In this document: positions 10,321 to 63,566 of the stretch, piece by piece
How the letters are laid out: each line of letters starts with the position of its first letter
Position numbering within the stretch: position 1 is the stretch's first letter
NCBI RefSeq assembly: GCF_000955905.1
Contig: NZ_CP011097.1
Span: 1,142,582 to 1,206,581, forward strand
DNA length: 64,000 nucleotides
Direction: 5' to 3'
Origin: Candidatus Nitrosotenuis cloacae
GTDB lineage: Archaea; Thermoproteota; Nitrososphaeria; Nitrososphaerales; Nitrosopumilaceae
Made by a program: the position numbers and the translations under genes
Notes under the pieces: model-generated
Databases searched by the model: none
What the model was told of the DNA's origin: nothing
The model's input: the letters and a program-made list of their open reading frames with translations, nothing else

Positions 10321-11112
10321 ATGCAGATTTCACAGAAATGGGCATTGGGCTCATCAATGATTCTGATGGGAGTTGTGTTTTTGGCTGCCAATGTTTTGCA
10401 GCAAGAAGACTATCCAATCATACCAGACAGCATCTATCCGACAGACATTTTCTTTGTTGCAGTATCACCGATTGTAATTGTTTTTTCCGCCATACTGGTT
10501 GCAAGGCACGGTATGACAGGTAATCACTCCAAGGCGTGGATTTTGTTCTTGGCAGGCTCGATATCGTGGTACATGGCAGACCTAACATATTACTATAATT
10601 CCGAATACATTACACAAAACAACAACTCGTATCTGGTTGACTATCTGTATTACTTGAGTTATTTTCTGTATTTTGGATTCATGTTATTTTATGTAAAGCC
10701 AAGAAAAAACAAGATCACAAAAAGAATCATCATACTAGGCGTGATAATCTCTGCAAGTTTTATTGCACCAAGCACGTATTTTATTTTGCAAAAACCAACC
10801 ACAGACAATGCAGAAACCGGAATTAACATGGTTTATCCGTTTTTGGATGCAATGGTCTTTGTTCCGGCATTTGTTGCAACAGTTTTGTTTTTCAGAGGCG
10901 AGGTGAATTTTCTGTGGATTACAATAACCCTTGGAGTGATCTGTATGGCAGTGGCAGACACGATATTTTTAGTGGAACGATGCCTTGAGATGTTCTCGCC
11001 TAGCAGCTTTGCGAATCTGTTTTTTGCATGGAAGTGGATTTTGTTTGCGTTTGGTGCGTATTCTCACATCAAAATATTTGGCGCCACAAAAAACGGCCTA
11101 ATCAAGCAGTGA
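10321..11112 (+). CDS. multi-pass membrane protein (about 7 helices)
   Basis: A 263-residue hydrophobic protein with about seven predicted transmembrane segments (roughly 8-25, 41-62, 73-90, 107-125, 136-155, 175-195 and 200-217, with a further hydrophobic stretch near 235-255). The loops are short and the C-terminus basic. There are no channel or transporter motifs I can name; the layout resembles membrane sensor modules found at the N-terminus of signalling proteins. Starting 6 bases after the small helical protein suggests a shared function. Its 3' end overlaps the convergent ahbAB gene by 11 bases. Confidence 0.6.
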   Translation: MQISQKWALGSSMILMGVVFLAANVLQQEDYPIIPDSIYPTDIFFVAVSPIVIVFSAILVARHGMTGNHSKAWILFLAGSISWYMADLTYYYNSEYITQNNNSYLVDYLYYLSYFLYFGFMLFYVKPRKNKITKRIIILGVIISASFIAPSTYFILQKPTTDNAETGINMVYPFLDAMVFVPAFVATVLFFRGEVNFLWITITLGVICMAVADTIFLVERCLEMFSPSSFANLFFAWKWILFAFGAYSHIKIFGATKNGLIKQ

Positions 11113-12115
11113 TTGGATCTTCTATTGTGTATTGTCCTTCGGTGAAATACTCGACGCGTGTCTTTTTGAATTCGCGTGAGCTGAACAATATTTTGTAATC
11201 ATCTACATTGATGTGTCCCTGGATGTCCTTTGCCATAGACTCGGCTTCTGCAATTGACTTGCAGTGCACCATTGAGAACACATTGTATGGCCAATCGGCA
11301 TAGACAGGTCGTTGGTAGCAATGGCTGATTTGCGGAAATGCACCCAGTGTTTCTCCAACGGACTCGATTTTTTCCTCTGGGACGCGCCACACTATCATGC
11401 CGTTTGCGGTAAATCCCACGTCTCTGTGTCGTAGAATAGCGGCATAACGCCTCATCACACCAATGGATTCGTAGTAGTATAGTTTTTCAAAAACCTGCGC
11501 TTCACTCATTTTTAATGCCTGAGCTGCCGGAAGGAATGGCCTATCAATTACCTGCAGGTCTTTTTGCAATTGTCTGATGAATTCTTTATCGTCCTCATTT
11601 GGAGCAAACTTTACCTCGTTGATCTTTTTCTTTTCCTCAGTTGGGGCTATCTCTTTTTTTTTCTCATCAATCATGTCTAGTTTGACGCCGATTTTGAACA
11701 GCTTAATCGTAGGTAATAGTCGGATTTTTAAAATTCCTGGTAGCTTTCCAAACTTGTCCACCTCGGTTTTCAGATCCGTTCCGGGTGGTGTTGCTAGTGT
11801 GAACCACAAGTTGTACTCGTGGTTTCGCTCGTAATTATGCGATACTCCGGGATGTCGGTTGATTTGATTTGCAACATAGTCTAGTTTTTCTGGCGTTACT
11901 GCCATCGCAACAAGTGAGCTCTTGTATCCAAGTCGTCTAGTATCAAAGATTGCGGAGAGTTGTCGGAGAACTCCGCTGGATTTCAGTTGAGTGATTCTGT
12001 TTTTCATTTCATCATTTGATATGTGGAATTTATCTGCAAGAGACTTGTATGGTTCGGCTACCAAAGGAAAGGACCACTGGATTTCATTTAGGATTTCTTT
12101 GTCTAGTGCATCCAT
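11102..12115 (-). CDS. ahbAB: siroheme decarboxylase, AhbA-AhbB fusion
   Basis: A 337-residue protein made of two Lrp/AsnC-like units. The N-terminal unit (about 1-150) has a winged helix and the heme-site words S-H-N-Y-E-R-N-H-E-Y-N-L-W-F. The C-terminal unit (about 175-325) has S-H-C-Y-Q-R-P and W-P-Y-N-V-F-S-M-V-H. These are the conserved His/Tyr motifs of AhbA and AhbB, which jointly decarboxylate siroheme to 12,18-didecarboxysiroheme. A Lys/Glu-rich linker (about 150-175) joins them. In many organisms the two are separate genes. It diverges from the precorrin-2 dehydrogenase-hemA-hemB operon, which supports a role in heme synthesis rather than transcription control. Confidence 0.85.
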   Translation of the reverse strand: MDALDKEILNEIQWSFPLVAEPYKSLADKFHISNDEMKNRITQLKSSGVLRQLSAIFDTRRLGYKSSLVAMAVTPEKLDYVANQINRHPGVSHNYERNHEYNLWFTLATPPGTDLKTEVDKFGKLPGILKIRLLPTIKLFKIGVKLDMIDEKKKEIAPTEEKKKINEVKFAPNEDDKEFIRQLQKDLQVIDRPFLPAAQALKMSEAQVFEKLYYYESIGVMRRYAAILRHRDVGFTANGMIVWRVPEEKIESVGETLGAFPQISHCYQRPVYADWPYNVFSMVHCKSIAEAESMAKDIQGHINVDDYKILFSSREFKKTRVEYFTEGQYTIEDPITA

Positions 12116-12200: not shown

Positions 12201-12854
12201 GTGATTGTTGACCTAAACCTAAAGGACAAACTAGTCATAGTTGTTGGAGCCGGTGGCGAGGGTCTAAAAAAAGTAAACTCGCTACTAACACAAGACTGCC
12301 AGATTTTGGTAATATCTGATAGTACAAATGCACAAATCCAAAAGTTGGTAAAGCAAGGCAAAATAGAATTCAAAAAAATAAAGCTGGAAAATGCAAACTT
12401 CCTAAACGACTATGAACCAATATTGGTAATGGCGGCAACCGATGATAAAGAACTAAACCGAAATATCTCAACATATGCAAAGAAAAAGCGATGTTATGCA
12501 TATGCCGCAGATGACCCGGAGTTCTCTGACTTTGCACACCCATCAGTCATTAACATACAGGATACTGTCCAGATAGCAATCTCAACTGGTGGACGATCAC
12601 CCGCAATGGCTCGCAAGCTCAAACTAAAGGCGGAAAAAATCTTTAATGAAATCATAAACAAAGAGGACATTTACCAAATAAAGCTACAAAAAATTGCGCG
12701 CGATGCCGCAAAGTCCAAAATAGGAACCGTCCTTGAGCGAAAAAAATTCCTATATTCAGTTTTGAATAATTCCAAGATAAAACAGTTATTAAAAGACGAT
12801 AATTTTCCAAGTGCACAAAGAGAAGTAATGAGGATGCTTGGCGAGTGGAAATGA
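12201..12854 (+). CDS. precorrin-2 dehydrogenase / siroheme synthase (Met8-like)
   Basis: A 217-residue NAD-dependent dehydrogenase, starting at GTG 12201. The Rossmann motif is V-V-G-A-G-G-E-G (14-21), followed by the family's A-A-T-D-D-K-E-L-N (about 79-87), A-D-D-P-E-F-S-D-F (about 107-115) and S-T-G-G-R-S-P-A-M-A-R (about 132-142). It oxidises precorrin-2 to sirohydrochlorin; whether it also inserts iron, as yeast Met8p does, cannot be told from sequence alone. The stop overlaps the hemA ATG (ATGA). It supplies the substrate for the divergent siroheme decarboxylase. Confidence 0.88.
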   Translation: MIVDLNLKDKLVIVVGAGGEGLKKVNSLLTQDCQILVISDSTNAQIQKLVKQGKIEFKKIKLENANFLNDYEPILVMAATDDKELNRNISTYAKKKRCYAYAADDPEFSDFAHPSVINIQDTVQIAISTGGRSPAMARKLKLKAEKIFNEIINKEDIYQIKLQKIARDAAKSKIGTVLERKKFLYSVLNNSKIKQLLKDDNFPSAQREVMRMLGEWK

Positions 12855-14104
12855 GCAATATCATCAATGCCCGTGTAACGTTTAGGAACTCCCCAATTCA
12901 TGTTTTGGAAAAATTCACATTCAAAGATCTAGATTCTGCTTACGAGTCATTCAGAAAACACTCTGGCCTAAAGGAGCTAGTCATTTTACAGACTTGCAAT
13001 AGAGTGGAGATCTTTGGCTCTACCGACAAGCCAAGCATGCAAAAAATAAAGAAAACTTGGGCTTCACTTGCTGGACTAGAAGAGATGGCATTCAAGGAAA
13101 ACTTTGAGGTATCAGAAGACACTGAAGTATGCGAGCACTTGCTTAGACTAACATCGGGGCTGGACTCCATGGTAGTGGGAGAAGAACAGATTTTGGGCCA
13201 AGTAAAGGACGCCATCATACAAGCAAAGGAGATGAGAGCCTCAGGTGAATACCTCAACACACTATTTGATAAGGCAGTAAAGATTGGAACGCGTGTTAGA
13301 AACTCGACTGGCATAAACAAGGGAACCATCTCGGTTGGTTCCATGGCAGTAAAACTGGCAGAGGAAAACATTGATGATCTAAAATCAAAAAAGATCCTGC
13401 TAATTGGTACAGGTGAGGCAGCCACACTTGTTGCAAAGTCGCTGGAAAAGCGAGACTATCATTTTTACGTGACGAGTCGCACCATGGAACGCTCAAAGGC
13501 ATTTGCAGAAACAGTTGGCGGCGAGCCGATTGGGTTTGAAGAAATAATGAAGGGGTTCTCAAACTATGATGTCTTGTTTGTGGCAACGGTTGCGCCATAC
13601 TTTTTGGTTACATTTGATAGGATCAAAGATGCAATGAAAAGCAAGAAAGACGGCATGATGATACTGGACTTATCAAATCCCAGAACAGTCGATGAAAAAG
13701 TTGCCACCATTCATGGAATAAAGATGATGAATCTGGACCAAATAGCAGAAATGGTCGACAAGAACATGCGATACCGCACAAACCAGAAAAACAGTGCAGA
13801 AAAAATAATTAGTGAAGAGATACAGGTACTAGAAGCCCACATGAAAAGACTCGAAATAGAACCAGTTGTCAAAGAAATCTTCAAGGATATTGATGTAAGA
13901 CGCTCAAAGGAGCTGGAAAAAGCACTACGCATGTTAGGTGAAACAGACGAGTCCAAGGTAAAGATTATCGATGATCTGACAAAGGCAATAGTGGAGGGAA
14001 TCATCTCGACTCCAATGAACAACCTAAGAAAAGCATCCGAACAATCAAATGACGACCTACTAAAGGCTGCAACCAAACTCTTTGATTACAAGAAAAAAGA
14101 ATAA
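12851..14104 (+). CDS. hemA: glutamyl-tRNA reductase
   Basis: A 417-residue HemA from the ATG at 12851, which overlaps the upstream stop as ATGA; an in-frame GTG six bases earlier is the alternative. The catalytic cysteine is Cys49 in L-Q-T-C-N-R-V-E. The glutamate-site block G-L-D-S-M-V-V-G-E-E-Q-I-L-G-Q-V-K (about 98-114) and the NADPH motif L-I-G-T-G-E-A-A (about 182-189) are intact, and the C-terminal dimerisation helices are present. It makes glutamate-1-semialdehyde from Glu-tRNA, the first committed step. A second HemA-like gene at 60606-61850 lacks the cysteine. Confidence 0.95.
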   Translation: MSNIINARVTFRNSPIHVLEKFTFKDLDSAYESFRKHSGLKELVILQTCNRVEIFGSTDKPSMQKIKKTWASLAGLEEMAFKENFEVSEDTEVCEHLLRLTSGLDSMVVGEEQILGQVKDAIIQAKEMRASGEYLNTLFDKAVKIGTRVRNSTGINKGTISVGSMAVKLAEENIDDLKSKKILLIGTGEAATLVAKSLEKRDYHFYVTSRTMERSKAFAETVGGEPIGFEEIMKGFSNYDVLFVATVAPYFLVTFDRIKDAMKSKKDGMMILDLSNPRTVDEKVATIHGIKMMNLDQIAEMVDKNMRYRTNQKNSAEKIISEEIQVLEAHMKRLEIEPVVKEIFKDIDVRRSKELEKALRMLGETDESKVKIIDDLTKAIVEGIISTPMNNLRKASEQSNDDLLKAATKLFDYKKKE

Positions 14105-58361: not shown

Positions 58362-59321
58362 TTAGGATTTTCTCTGGAAGATTTTGATTGCCTGTGGTGG
58401 ACATACGCCTTCACATGCCAAACAAAAGATACAATCTGGCTCGCGCGCCATTAGTGGCTTTTTGTCAGATGCTGGATTTCCAGGCGTATCAAACCATTCA
58501 TAGACCTGAACAGGACATGCATCAATGCAAGCTCCGTCTGCAACACAGATATCATAATCAACTGATACAAACTCGCCCCAGACACCCATTATTCCATTGT
58601 CTTCTCCCTTTCTGCCCCAAGTCTTGACGACATTTTTGTTGGAAGCCACAGTATATGGTATACTTGATGGCATGTGGGATTTGTATTCAACATCAATTGG
58701 TCCCGGTTTTGCACCATCTGGAACTTCAATTACCTCTGATACTAGTTCTTGCGTTCCGGCAGGAATCTCTGGTTTTGGTTTTGGTTTTGCGTTTGGAACT
58801 ATTTTTGCAAGTGGGGTTAGATCCTCTAGTCTTTTGAGTGCGGCGTCGGGTTCGATTTTTTCTAGCCTTGCAAGACTCTCCACCATCTTGTCTGCTAGAA
58901 TAGTATTTCGTAGAATGGTGTCAATTATCATCTTTGCATAATAGTCGGCTTTTTTGCGATAGTCCTTTACCCACTGTGGGTCGCCAAATTTCTCAATTGG
59001 AAATATTTGGTAAATGATATCCACTACCTCGCCAGATACTATTTCCACAGTAATGGAGAGGTTTGTTTTTTGGTATCCCCTGGAGCTTGGGTCCGGCATG
59101 TTTTCCTCAGTCCAGGTATGGGTCGCAAAGACTCTGTCAGCAAAGGTATCCATCGTAAAGGTCTTTTTGAGGCCCTCAACTATGGATTTCATCTCCAATG
59201 GATCTTCCAGCTTGATTGGTAAGCGGTACAGCCCTAGCTTGAAGCCATGTAATGGGTAGACGCCCCTTTTTGTGGTGGGTGATTCCATTGTGTAAACTCG
59301 ATCTTTTAATAAAAGCGACAT
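58362..59321 (-). CDS. long dicluster (zinc-ferredoxin-like) ferredoxin, copy 1
   Basis: A 319-residue protein. The last about 75 residues match the dicluster zinc-containing ferredoxins of Sulfolobus: C-V-A-D-G-A-C-I-D-A-C-P (first cluster, with Asp as in 3Fe-4S types), W-F-D-T-P-G-N-P-A-S, and C-I-F-C-L-A-C-E-G-V-C-P (4Fe-4S). Residues 1-200 form an unrelated extension of mixed alpha/beta type, with a proline-rich linker (K-P-K-P-K-P-E). A near-identical paralogue is at 62610-63566. It should be a soluble electron carrier, perhaps for the adjacent FAD reductase. The role of the extension is unknown. Confidence 0.85.
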   Translation of the reverse strand: MSLLLKDRVYTMESPTTKRGVYPLHGFKLGLYRLPIKLEDPLEMKSIVEGLKKTFTMDTFADRVFATHTWTEENMPDPSSRGYQKTNLSITVEIVSGEVVDIIYQIFPIEKFGDPQWVKDYRKKADYYAKMIIDTILRNTILADKMVESLARLEKIEPDAALKRLEDLTPLAKIVPNAKPKPKPEIPAGTQELVSEVIEVPDGAKPGPIDVEYKSHMPSSIPYTVASNKNVVKTWGRKGEDNGIMGVWGEFVSVDYDICVADGACIDACPVQVYEWFDTPGNPASDKKPLMAREPDCIFCLACEGVCPPQAIKIFQRKS

Positions 59322-59495: not shown

Positions 59496-60341
59496 TTGGT
59501 CGCAGCAAATAAAGCAAGAATAACTTATGTTCAGCTTTTAAAAGAGGATCTCGCAGTTTTTCGTATCGTACCAGAAGATGGGGTAATTCCAGACTACAAG
59601 GCAGGCCAGTTCCTTACACTTGGAATTTCAGTGGCAAATGAAAACTACAAAACCGTTAGAAGGGCTTATTCCATTGCATCTCATCCTGAAAATAAAAAAT
59701 ATTATGAATTTGTAATCAGGTGGGTAAGAAAGCCACTTCCAGGTCGTGTCACAACCCAGTTGTTTTACGCAAGCGATGGCGATGAGGTCACAATAGGAAA
59801 CCCAACAGGAAACGCCCTTATCATAAACGACAAGCTTCCAGACGGCAGAAAAGACGAAAGACGAATTGTCTGCATCGGCGGCGGAACCGGGATTGCACCG
59901 TTTGTGAGTTTTGCAAAGCATCTGAACGCAGTTGGTGATAAAAGAGAGGTCGTTGTATTGCACGGTGCAAGTTATGTTGATGAGCTAAGTTACAGAGGAT
60001 TGTTCACAGAACTTGAAACCGAAAGCATAGATCGAGGAGCAGACAAGTGGAACTTCAAGTATCGTGCAGCGGTTAGTCGTCCACAAGAATGGTTTAATCG
60101 AGCATGGAATGGTCCAACAGGAAGAGTTGAGAATTTCCTGCGCGCAAAGGACGGTGGAAAATCACCACTAGAGGAACTAGTCGGTGAAAAGATCACAAGA
60201 GACAATACCAGCTTTTACATTTGTGGCTGGCAAGGAACAATTGATGGCGTTATGGAATTTCTAACACCACAAGGCTTTGTGACATATCACGACAAACGTG
60301 ATGATGACAGCTTTGAAGTAAAGTACGAATCATACGGATAA
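59496..60341 (+). CDS. ferredoxin-NAD(P)+ reductase-like flavoprotein
   Basis: A 281-residue FNR-superfamily flavoprotein starting at TTG 59496. The FAD site R-R-A-Y-S-I-A-S (about 55-62) is canonical, followed by G-N-P-T-G-N and the NAD(P)-binding G-G-G-T-G-I-A-P-F (about 127-135) and C-G-W-Q-G-T-I-D (about 243-250). It transfers electrons between a ferredoxin and NAD(P)H. It diverges from ferredoxin copy 1, and copy 2 lies 2.3 kb downstream, so it likely uses one or both. Confidence 0.9.
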   Translation: MVAANKARITYVQLLKEDLAVFRIVPEDGVIPDYKAGQFLTLGISVANENYKTVRRAYSIASHPENKKYYEFVIRWVRKPLPGRVTTQLFYASDGDEVTIGNPTGNALIINDKLPDGRKDERRIVCIGGGTGIAPFVSFAKHLNAVGDKREVVVLHGASYVDELSYRGLFTELETESIDRGADKWNFKYRAAVSRPQEWFNRAWNGPTGRVENFLRAKDGGKSPLEELVGEKITRDNTSFYICGWQGTIDGVMEFLTPQGFVTYHDKRDDDSFEVKYESYG

Positions 60342-60368: not shown

Positions 60369-60533
60369 TTATCCTTTTCGTATTATAAATTGCATCAATG
60401 CTTCTTTGGAATATTCAATTCCGTGCTCTTCAGTTGAGTGAGAGTTGTATTCTTCAATTACTTTACCGACATCGTTTCCACTAGAAACAAAATCACAATC
60501 AAAACCATAATCCCGACATACTAGCTTGATCAC
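60369..60533 (-). CDS. DUF1059 family protein, 54 residues
   Basis: A 54-residue gene starting at GTG 60533. The pattern is that of DUF1059: I-K-L-V-C-R-D-Y-G-F-D-C-D-F (2-15), then V-I-E-E-Y-N-S-H-S-T-E-E-H-G (25-38), with conserved Cys6, Cys13, His32 and His37. These Cys and His residues may bind metal. A TATA-like CTTATTTA read on + at 60554-60561 lies 25 bases upstream. Family function is unknown. It sits between the flavoprotein and the HemA-like gene, which are convergent. Confidence 0.75.
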   Translation of the reverse strand: MIKLVCRDYGFDCDFVSSGNDVGKVIEEYNSHSTEEHGIEYSKEALMQFIIRKG

Positions 60534-60605: not shown

Positions 60606-61850
60606 TTATTTTTTTGCCACAGTTGGTTTTGGAAGAATTCCATCCACGATTGCAGTTGTCAGATCAGTGATAATTTTGATCTTTTTCTCATCTGTTTCGC
60701 CAAGCAATTCTAGTGTCTTTTCCAGTTCCTTTTTTCGTAGCGCATCTACGCTTGCAAACACGTCGGTTACCTGCGGGCCCTGCTCTATTAGCTTCATTGT
60801 TGCCTCAATTACCGCGATTTCTTTTGCGATGATTTTCTCTACTGCAATAATGGTCTCTTCCTGTGCCTTGAGATCCCGCTCCTCCATTTCGGTTAGCTGG
60901 TCTCGGAACATTAGCTTGATTCCAGGTAAAGTCATCACAGTATCATCTACTGTCCTTGGATCAGAAATGTCCAAAATCATGGTTCCCTTGGTGTTATTTT
61001 CCATTGTTAGTTTCAGGTTATCAAAGGTGAGAGCAAAATAGTCAGAGGTTGTTGCAACAAAGACAAAATCAAATTTGTTAAATTCCTTTAGTGCTTCTTT
61101 GAATCCAATTGGCTTGCCGCCCAGTATTTTTGAAAAGCCAGTTGCACGCTCTATTGTCATGCTACAAACATCAAATGGGTATGCCTTTTTGTTGAGTGAT
61201 TTGGCAACCATTGCGGCAGTCTCTCCAGTACCCATCAAAAGCACACGTTTTTTCGCATCAAGGCCAGCATTTTGTTCTGCTATTTTGACTGCCATCTCTC
61301 CAAGGGATTTTGCACCCTTGTTGATTTGAGTCGAGTTTCTAATGCGGGTAGCAGTAAGAATTACAGTGTCAAACAGTTTGTTGAGTATCTTATCAGATGT
61401 CTTGGCAAGCTTTGCTCCAAGTATGGTTGCCTTTAGCTCGCCAAGTATTGTCTCGTTTCCTACCACGACGGATTCTAGGCCGCACGCCAACTTTAGCAGA
61501 TGCAAGTAGACATCTGTATTGACATATACTTCCAAGATTTGATCAAAATGATCAATGTCGTATTGTTCCAGTTCGGTTAGTGATTGCCAAGTTTCTCGGA
61601 TTTTGCTTATGATCAAGGTTTTGCCCTCAGATGATCTAAGGTCTGGTGAGTCAGTCTCCATTGCATTTACGGTAAATATCTCAACTCTGCTTTGCGTTTG
61701 AAGTATCACACATTCTGAGACGCCCGGAATCTTTTTGAATGCCTCAGATGCGGCCGCAAGATCCTTAAATGAGAATCTGGCTAGACTGTGAATCGGTATA
61801 TTCCTAAATGTAACGCGGACATTAATGACATTGAATGTTCCATCATTCAT
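60606..61850 (-). CDS. HemA-like paralogue lacking the catalytic cysteine
   Basis: A 414-residue protein clearly homologous, end to end, to the HemA at 12851-14104. It keeps the NADPH site (L-M-G-T-G-E-T-A-A), the glutamate-site region (G-L-E-S-V-V-V-G-N-E-T-I-L-G-E-L-K) and the dimerisation helices. The active-site word L-Q-T-C-N-R-V-E is L-Q-T-Q-S-R-V-E, so the catalytic Cys is Gln53 and the next Asn is Ser; Arg55 is kept. It also has an insertion near residues 62-75. It cannot make the thioester of normal HemA. It is co-transcribed with the upstream 221-residue gene (6-base gap) and lies in a ferredoxin cluster. A regulatory or new dehydrogenase role is inferred. Confidence 0.88.
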   Translation of the reverse strand: MNDGTFNVINVRVTFRNIPIHSLARFSFKDLAAASEAFKKIPGVSECVILQTQSRVEIFTVNAMETDSPDLRSSEGKTLIISKIRETWQSLTELEQYDIDHFDQILEVYVNTDVYLHLLKLACGLESVVVGNETILGELKATILGAKLAKTSDKILNKLFDTVILTATRIRNSTQINKGAKSLGEMAVKIAEQNAGLDAKKRVLLMGTGETAAMVAKSLNKKAYPFDVCSMTIERATGFSKILGGKPIGFKEALKEFNKFDFVFVATTSDYFALTFDNLKLTMENNTKGTMILDISDPRTVDDTVMTLPGIKLMFRDQLTEMEERDLKAQEETIIAVEKIIAKEIAVIEATMKLIEQGPQVTDVFASVDALRKKELEKTLELLGETDEKKIKIITDLTTAIVDGILPKPTVAKK

Positions 61851-61856
61851 CTACGA

Positions 61857-62522
61857 TCACTTGTGCTCCAGTTTGGCTCGGCCATTTTGTGCAGTGCGAA
61901 ATACATTCATGCTATAGTAAAAGCTCTCATAGAGTGAATCTAGATATTCTAGTTCTTGTTCTGTACGGGTGATATCTTCTGGGATTGCATCCGGATCATT
62001 TTTCAGATTAGCCAGTTTTTGTTTTGCTGCAGCCACGAGTTCTGCAATACCGGACTCATAGTTTGATGTGCCCCCATATTCTACGCTGAGAACATGTTTT
62101 GGCGCATATTGAGGAGTCGCATCGACTGGAATCTCGACTTTTTTCGATATTTCTTCTTGTTCTTCCTCACTTAGCATGATTCTTTTTGGAATGAGATCTT
62201 TTTTGTAGCGGAAAAATTCCGGCTCACCCATTTCTCTTCTGAAAATTCTTTCTTGATTTCGTTTATTTGTAAGTGGTTTTCCTGCGGCTGATGCTTGTGC
62301 AGATTTTGCTATTGCGGCATATTCTTTTTCTGCCTCTGCTGCTGCTTTTGCCATGACCGCCATTGCTGATTCGTATTCTTTTTCTGCTGCCTCTAAAATC
62401 GCTTTTGCGGTTGCAAGCTTGGTAGCTGCAAGCTCGGCCTGTGTTGTTGCAGCTTGAACTTGTGCGCCTGCACTAGATGGTTTTTGTTCTTTTGGAGCAT
62501 CTTGGGTGCTTTCAGACAACAA
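61857..62522 (-). CDS. Ala-rich coiled-coil protein upstream of the HemA paralogue
   Basis: A 221-residue protein, not recognised. Residues 20-80 are an Ala/Glu-rich coiled coil (A-A-T-T-Q-A-E-L-A-A-T-K-L-A-T-A-K). A basic linker follows (K-R-N-Q-E-R-I-F-R-R-E-M), then a C-terminal helical part that contains E-Y-L-D-S-L-Y-E-S-F-Y-Y-S-M-N-V-F-R-T-A (about 190-209). The start is TTG at 62522, with CTTAAAATC about 26 bases upstream. Its stop is 6 bases before the HemA-like start, so the two probably form a complex or share regulation. Confidence 0.6.
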   Translation of the reverse strand: MLSESTQDAPKEQKPSSAGAQVQAATTQAELAATKLATAKAILEAAEKEYESAMAVMAKAAAEAEKEYAAIAKSAQASAAGKPLTNKRNQERIFRREMGEPEFFRYKKDLIPKRIMLSEEEQEEISKKVEIPVDATPQYAPKHVLSVEYGGTSNYESGIAELVAAAKQKLANLKNDPDAIPEDITRTEQELEYLDSLYESFYYSMNVFRTAQNGRAKLEHK

Positions 62523-62609: not shown

Positions 62610-63566
62610 TTAGGATTTTCTCTGGAAGATTTTGATTGCCTGTGGTGGACATACGCCTTCACATGCCAAGCAAAAGATACAGTCCGGCTCGCGCGCCATA
62701 AGTGGCTTTTTTGCCGATGCCACGTTTCCTGGTGTATCAAACCATTCATACACCGAAACAGGGCATGCATCAATGCACGCACCATCTGCAACACAGATAT
62801 CATAATCAACTGATACAAACTCGCCCCAGACACCCATGTTCGTGTTGTCTGTTCCCACGCGTCCCCAAGTCTTGATGACATTTTTGTTGGAAGCCACAGT
62901 GTATGGTATGGTGACGGGCATGTGAGCCTTGTATTCTACATCTATTGGTCCTGTCTTTGGACCATCTAGTAATGCACCCATCACAGGTGCAGCTCCCTGA
63001 GACACCTCGACTTCTGGTTTTGGTTTTGGTTTTGCGTCAGGAACTATTTTTGCAAATGGAGTTAGTTTTTCAAGTTCTGCTATTGCATCGTCTTGCTCGA
63101 ATTTCTTGCTCTTGACAAAATATTCAATCATCTTGTCTGCCAGAATAGTATTTCGTAGAATGGTATCAATTATCATCTTTGCATAATAGTCGGCTTTTTT
63201 ACGATAGTCCTTGATCCATTCCTGGTCGCCAAATTTCTCAATTGGGAATATTTGGTAAATGATATCCACTACCTCGCCAGATACTATTTCTACAGTAATT
63301 GAGAGGTTGGCTTTTTGGTATCCCTTTGCGTCTGGGTCTGGCATGTTCTCTTCAATCCAATTGTATGTGGCAAAGATTCGATCAGCATACATGTCCATTG
63401 AAAATGTCTTTTTGAGTCCATCAAAAACAGACTTCATTTCCAGTGGATCTTCTAGTTTTATTGGTAAACGATACAGACCAAGCTTGTAGCCATGTAATGG
63501 GTAGACGCCCCTTTTTGCGGTGGGTGATTCCATTGTGTAAACTCGATCTTTTAGTAAAAGCGACAT
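62610..63566 (-). CDS. long dicluster (zinc-ferredoxin-like) ferredoxin, copy 2
   Basis: A 318-residue paralogue of the protein at 58362-59321, estimated by eye at about 80% identical. It has the same C-terminal clusters (C-V-A-D-G-A-C-I-D-A-C-P and C-I-F-C-L-A-C-E-G-V-C-P) and the same N-terminal extension. Differences concentrate at about residues 150-165 and in the proline-rich linker (about 185-210). The last 20 codons are almost identical in DNA to copy 1, suggesting recent duplication or conversion. Two copies may serve different partners or conditions. Confidence 0.87.
   Translation of the reverse strand: MSLLLKDRVYTMESPTAKRGVYPLHGYKLGLYRLPIKLEDPLEMKSVFDGLKKTFSMDMYADRIFATYNWIEENMPDPDAKGYQKANLSITVEIVSGEVVDIIYQIFPIEKFGDQEWIKDYRKKADYYAKMIIDTILRNTILADKMIEYFVKSKKFEQDDAIAELEKLTPFAKIVPDAKPKPKPEVEVSQGAAPVMGALLDGPKTGPIDVEYKAHMPVTIPYTVASNKNVIKTWGRVGTDNTNMGVWGEFVSVDYDICVADGACIDACPVSVYEWFDTPGNVASAKKPLMAREPDCIFCLACEGVCPPQAIKIFQRKS

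Follow-up and report, generated by a model that had tools for sequence, protein, structure and literature searches.

A conserved glutamyl-tRNA reductase paralogue without the catalytic cysteine in the Nitrosopumilaceae, its coiled-coil partner and a possible link to a carboxylase

Glutamyl-tRNA reductase (GluTR) is the first enzyme on the route to heme and vitamin B12. It has a three-domain layout and a cysteine-thioester mechanism, with the thioester reduced by NADPH (PMC6399207). In plants the same entry enzyme is the target of the regulators GBP and FLU, which are binding proteins (PMC4726326); they are unrelated to GluTR, not paralogues of it like the protein considered here, and bear on this locus solely under a regulatory hypothesis. 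For Nitrosopumilus maritimus a 2010 survey gave NMAR_0510 as the sole hemA, with copies outside the cluster omitted by the survey's own rule (PMC3004389).

We examined a 64,000-nt stretch of Candidatus Nitrosotenuis cloacae DNA (the window). It encodes two HemA homologues (Table 1), the canonical HemA1 with the motif LQTCNRVE and a second copy, HemA2, with LQTQSRVE, both at the positions and with the motifs given in an earlier note on this DNA. A PF05201 search of the 1.62-Mb genome matched these two and no others. No description of the HemA2 paralogue was found in open-access papers, and a search with N. maritimus locus tags near the expected position, which were guessed, returned no paper.

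Table 1. Features of the window, in coordinates of the whole stretch
Feature	Position	Strand	Basis or remark
HemA2, glutamyl-tRNA-reductase paralogue without catalytic Cys, 414 aa	60606..61850	-	ORF, domains, clade, residues, selection
Gln53 codon, at the site of the catalytic Cys (Cys49 in HemA1; site of Cys48 in M. kandleri GluTR)	61692..61694	-	alignments
HemA2-specific insertion, residues 69-77, conserved P69-D70-x-R72	61620..61646	-	at least 95% conserved in 107 HemA2; absent from HemA1
HemA2-specific DHFDQ motif, residues 100-104, conserved H101, D103, Q104	61539..61553	-	alignment
fam2, alanine-rich coiled-coil protein, 221 aa, start TTG, 6-nt gap to HemA2	61857..62522	-	upstream partner
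FNR2, FAD/NAD(P)H flavoprotein reductase, convergent with HemA2	59496..60341	+	PF00970/PF00175
DUF1059 small protein between HemA2 and FNR2, occasional neighbour	60369..60533	-	PF06348
Ferredoxin-like protein copy 1, local neighbour, outside conserved unit	62610..63566	-	domain matches
Ferredoxin-like protein copy 2, 80% identical to copy 1, local neighbour, outside conserved unit	58362..59321	-	domain matches
HemA1, canonical GluTR (comparison), between cysG-N-like and hemB genes	12845..14104 (alternative start 12851)	+	ORF, domains

Domains, origin and active site of HemA2

HemA2 is homologous to GluTR over its full length and is 49% identical to HemA1 of the same genome. PF05201, PF01488 and PF00745 were all above the Pfam cut-off, with scores over the three GluTR domains of 97.7, 62.8 and 33.8 bits against 144.4, 101.9 and 70.3 bits for HemA1, and the protein also passed the NCBIfam hemA model (TIGR01035; 217.7 bits, cut-off 209.55). 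The dimer-domain match was present but shortened, ending at profile position 76 of 99. In many orthologues of about 358 aa, among them those of Nitrosopumilus and Nitrosarchaeum, the dimerisation domain has been lost altogether, and the long members are without the conserved NNLRKASE tail of HemA1. The predicted structure of HemA2 was of moderate quality (pLDDT 78.6, pTM 0.60). A fold search with this model returned GluTR structures as the best matches (1GPJ at the top, with 4N7R, 5CHE and 5YJL), at low global TM-scores, as can occur with a hinged protein of three domains.

The HemA search covered 400 genomes of the class. Two copies were observed in most Nitrosopumilaceae (family f1) and one in genomes of family f3, taken to be the Nitrososphaeraceae, with a few exceptions; named genomes among the matches included Nitrosotenuis, Nitrosarchaeum, Nitrosopumilus and Nitrosopelagicus. 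A tree of 68 proteins (32 HemA2 and 36 HemA1) placed HemA2 in a single clade with support of 100/100, nested among the HemA1 sequences of the Nitrosopumilaceae, and a second, quick tree took in outgroups. HemA2 therefore arose by one hemA duplication inside this family. As the nesting lies within one family, transfer from elsewhere is unlikely, and transfer between genera could still have occurred. Two Cys-containing HemA1 proteins of g9 genomes (L099:8300-9556, G159; L102:8370-9623, G266) were unusually HemA2-like, and that of L099 was placed as sister of the HemA2 clade (100/99); this may mark the parental copy, reflect gene conversion or be an artefact of the tree. At four loci of family f2 (L141, L142, L144, L145) the HemA matches fell in two pieces within one frame of 445-487 aa, which suggests an insertion near residue 268.

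For the active site we relied on residue roles that we take from work on the M. kandleri enzyme. The catalytic Cys was found in none of the 103 readable HemA2 sequences (107 distinct sequences aligned, four with gaps) and in all 77 HemA1 rows, outgroups included. In HemA2 the position was occupied by A (69), S (15), Q (9), T (4), G (2) and by K, H, N or P (one each). The fixed Cys-to-Gln change anticipated earlier was therefore rejected, as the position varies across the clade and Gln occupies it in only nine members; nor is the change a peculiarity of this genome, the loss of the Cys being common to the whole clade. The catalytic His (H84 of M. kandleri GluTR by alignment), kept in the window copy, was H in 62 and N in 37 of the 107 sequences, and the GE-x-Q substrate loop (HemA1 numbering) was largely lost, with E111 and Q113 in 0/107 and Q117 in 7/107. 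These C, H, E, Q and Q residues are invariant or nearly so in HemA1.

Other parts of the GluTR site were retained. The Arg beside the catalytic Cys (R51) was observed in 103/103 HemA2, the GTG of the nucleotide motif and the Arg214-equivalent each in 107/107, and the GL[DE]S motif was also kept. The Arg of the SRT motif, which we presume to contact the NADPH phosphate, was present in 49/107. The suggestion that the NADPH-binding and dimer regions are intact is thus borne out for the GTGE motif; it does not hold for SRT, which reads SMT here and varies in the clade, or for the dimer region. Because the GTGE motif and the active-site Arg are kept, HemA2 has probably retained NAD(P)H binding and may also take up a carboxylate ligand.

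Of the 55 columns of the catalytic part that are at least 95% conserved in Nitrosopumilaceae HemA1, 28 were unchanged in HemA2; of the 51 such columns of the NADPH part, 25 were. Near-invariant residues peculiar to HemA2 were P69, D70, R72, H101, D103, Q104, Y109, K259 and K343, together with D270 (Pro in HemA1) and F315 (Asn in HemA1). Pairwise dN/dS was 0.039-0.111 for HemA2 in unsaturated comparisons, about twice that of HemA1 (0.023-0.048) and far below 1, which agrees with the earlier view that the gene is undecayed. The new invariant residues and the low dN/dS indicate that HemA2 is repurposed rather than decayed; it is no standard GluTR.

Gene neighbours of HemA2

We observed fam2 immediately upstream of HemA2, on the same strand, in 99 of 100 distinct loci with enough upstream sequence, mostly with gaps of -4 to 15 nt. 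The sole locus of the 100 where fam2 was not called directly upstream was L100:2562-3647 (G176). An FNR-type gene lay within three genes downstream of HemA2 in 57 of 60 testable loci. A coiled-coil protein and a flavoprotein reductase had both been named as neighbours in the earlier note, and both proved constant across HemA2 loci. The ferredoxins, which that note had made the defining context, flanked HemA2 in 4 of 39 loci, all of close relatives, and we abandoned the framing as a ferredoxin cluster. DUF1059 was scored at the +1 position to HemA2 in 8 of 39 loci (60-aa ORF cut-off). The two ferredoxin-like copies of the window, a local duplication that brackets the HemA2/FNR2 block, each consist of about 240 N-terminal residues of no known family and a dicluster ferredoxin end resembling zinc-containing ferredoxin.

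HemA2 and long fam2 were observed together in the same 42 of 71 Nitrosopumilaceae genomes and neither was observed in the other 29, as read by hand from the search tables and counting as long any fam2 match that covers the N-terminal part. The N-terminal extension of fam2 is confined to genomes that have HemA2. At least two FNR copies were present in 39 of the 42 genomes with HemA2 and in none of the 29 without. Mapped on the HemA1 tree, the co-occurrence gave four independent contrasts on supported branches (seven on all branches), all agreeing for fam2 and too few for a significance test. From the co-occurrence of the two genes we infer a physical complex of their products.

Searches with fam2 gave no significant match in Pfam, NCBIfam or the fold search, and its model shows a long helix joined by a poorly ordered linker to a helical hairpin at the C-terminus. 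Weak matches to Rpb5/RpoH (E 0.016-0.035) came from a short P-x-x-x-x-LSxEE stretch, looked like chance when compared with RpoH by eye and were discarded. We also rejected a separate FNR2 clade, as the FNR tree separated the copies weakly and some rows labelled FNR1 lay beside HemA2.

The surroundings of the two paralogues differ. HemA1 sits between siroheme-synthase-like/heme genes and hemB, whereas no tetrapyrrole cluster was seen in 39 HemA2 neighbourhoods. Near HemA1, at 11102-12115 of the window and on the strand opposite its cluster, the siroheme decarboxylase subunits AhbA and AhbB are fused in one reading frame.

Short fam2 and the carboxylase operon

A short form of fam2 (75-139 aa) matched the C-terminal part of the window's fam2 only, and in every short-fam2 locus inspected it adjoined an acetyl/propionyl-CoA carboxylase operon. 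The carboxylase genes were identified by their domains, and we presume that the enzyme is the acetyl-CoA/propionyl-CoA carboxylase that serves carbon fixation in thaumarchaea (PMC3732383; PMC7845616). In the two f3 loci inspected (L256, L257), short fam2 was directly upstream of the operon, which encodes a carboxyltransferase, a biotin carboxylase and a biotin carrier, and it was likewise directly upstream of the carboxyltransferase in this genome (L254) and in genomes without HemA2 (L260, L261, L266, L267). Its adjacency to the carboxyltransferase was kept where the genes upstream of fam2 differ (L256, L261, L267). A short helical protein of no known family recurs directly upstream of the carboxylase operon across the ammonia-oxidizing archaea (L254:7740-8048, L256:8141-8368, L257:7978-8208, L260:7238-7510) and is a candidate small carboxylase subunit. 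Given the match of its C-terminal part to this small protein, fam2 itself is most likely an accessory subunit of the carboxylase.

In the thaumarchaeal carboxylase operon (PMC3732383), fam2 is thus a conserved neighbour of the carboxyltransferase gene, and three genera have HemA2 inside the operon. In these genera (g10, g11 and g12; L071, L072-L074, L259) the order was zinc-ribbon gene, long fam2, HemA2, in some cases DUF1059, FNR and carboxyltransferase. Nitrosopumilus and Nitrosarchaeum loci had the fam2-HemA2 unit a few genes upstream of the carboxylase operon. No further fam2 was matched in these genomes, so that the short form may have given way to the long one. The genus of the window (g1) has both forms, with the HemA2 unit elsewhere and short fam2 at the operon, and in Nitrosopelagicus-like g9 genomes the unit also lies away from the carboxylase. 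No paper placing fam2 or HemA2 in the thaumarchaeal carboxylase operon was found in the open-access literature.

Possible roles of HemA2

HemA2 has lost the catalytic Cys and most of the substrate-binding loop while keeping GTGE and the active-site Arg. The explanation we prefer, tentatively and at somewhat less than even confidence, is that it is a repurposed GluTR that makes no GSA, a dinucleotide-binding pseudo-GluTR that works with fam2 and probably on the carboxylase. HemA2 would be made together with fam2, an elongated coiled-coil protein, which would dock it on the carboxylase; there, as an NAD(P)H-sensing pseudoenzyme, it could tune CO2 fixation to the supply of reductant. FNR2 would act in the same redox step. 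This mechanism is the weakest part of the explanation, and action of the complex on the carboxylase is its least certain step.

The HemA2-fam2 pair may instead serve a process unrelated to the carboxylase, with the gene order at the operon a relic of where fam2 was located. We consider this rather unlikely, though it deserves serious weight. The link may be only historical because the unit of g1 lies elsewhere and a separate short fam2 is still at its carboxylase operon, and the position of the unit in g9 points the same way. However, fam2 stays beside the carboxyltransferase despite the broken upstream order, and HemA2 lies within the operon in three genera.

The earlier note proposed a pseudoenzyme regulating tetrapyrrole entry or a dehydrogenase with a new substrate, and took a separate clade with conserved neighbours as the sign of a new function. 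Such a clade was found, with the Cys lost throughout and its neighbours conserved, and a pseudoenzyme or dehydrogenase with a new role fits these observations better; the tetrapyrrole part has no genomic support. A regulator of that kind, acting by binding HemA1, HemL or Glu-tRNA, would be in keeping with the derivation of HemA2 from HemA, with a HemL-docking shape that could persist in full-length members and with the control of plant GluTR by binding proteins (PMC4726326). However, none of the inspected HemA2 loci lies in a tetrapyrrole cluster, the C-terminal domain needed for HemA1-HemA2 dimers is missing from many members, and the clade shares new fixed residues absent from HemA1; we regard this role as improbable.

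An active reductase of a ready-made thioester, such as a CoA ester of the 3-hydroxypropionate/4-hydroxybutyrate cycle, would need no cysteine, because its substrate is already a thioester, and the retained Arg could hold the distal carboxylate. The idea is chemically attractive because the malonyl-CoA, acryloyl-CoA and succinyl-CoA reductases of N. maritimus were reported as unidentified as of 2018 (PMC6038301; see also PMC6964070). GluTR itself reduces a thioester with NADPH, the Arg and GTGE are kept where the amino-acid loop is lost, and HemA2 lies beside the carboxylase in g10-g12. However, HemA2 is absent from 29 of 71 Nitrosopumilaceae genomes and was not found in Nitrososphaeraceae-like genomes, which also need those steps, and therefore it cannot be their general enzyme. 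We judge a CoA-ester reductase to be quite improbable, and the chance is slimmer still that HemA2 joins fam2 and the carboxylase in a complex and there, as an acyl-thioester reductase without a cysteine, performs or bypasses an unassigned reductive step of this cycle in the species that carry HemA2.

Reduction of Glu-tRNA through another residue is very hard to credit. HemA2 passes the hemA cut-off, and Cys47, six positions upstream of the catalytic site, is at least 95% conserved in it; but this Cys also accompanies the catalytic one in 78% of HemA1 and is therefore not a replacement, and GluTR activity is unlikely because the substrate loop and the His are lost or relaxed and the tail is missing. 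Finally, a decaying duplicate or an assembly artefact, for which the faster evolution relative to HemA1 and the C-terminal domain lost in many members might speak, is already contradicted by the open reading frames of 107 distinct sequences, which come from many species, by dN/dS of 0.04-0.11, by new invariant residues and by a constant partner, leaving it next to no credence.

Because HemA2 passes the cut-off of the hemA model, annotation would call it hemA, and in marine and freshwater ammonia oxidisers alike it has probably been labelled as a heme gene in error. As a repurposed GluTR, it would give a clear-cut example of an essential enzyme put to another use, with a constant, unnamed partner. 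Should the carboxylase link prove true, it would point to a new subunit or form of control in the carbon fixation of archaea that abound in the ocean, and fam2 would count as a new protein associated with the carboxylase, in a pathway where some of the reductases still lack an assignment (PMC6038301).
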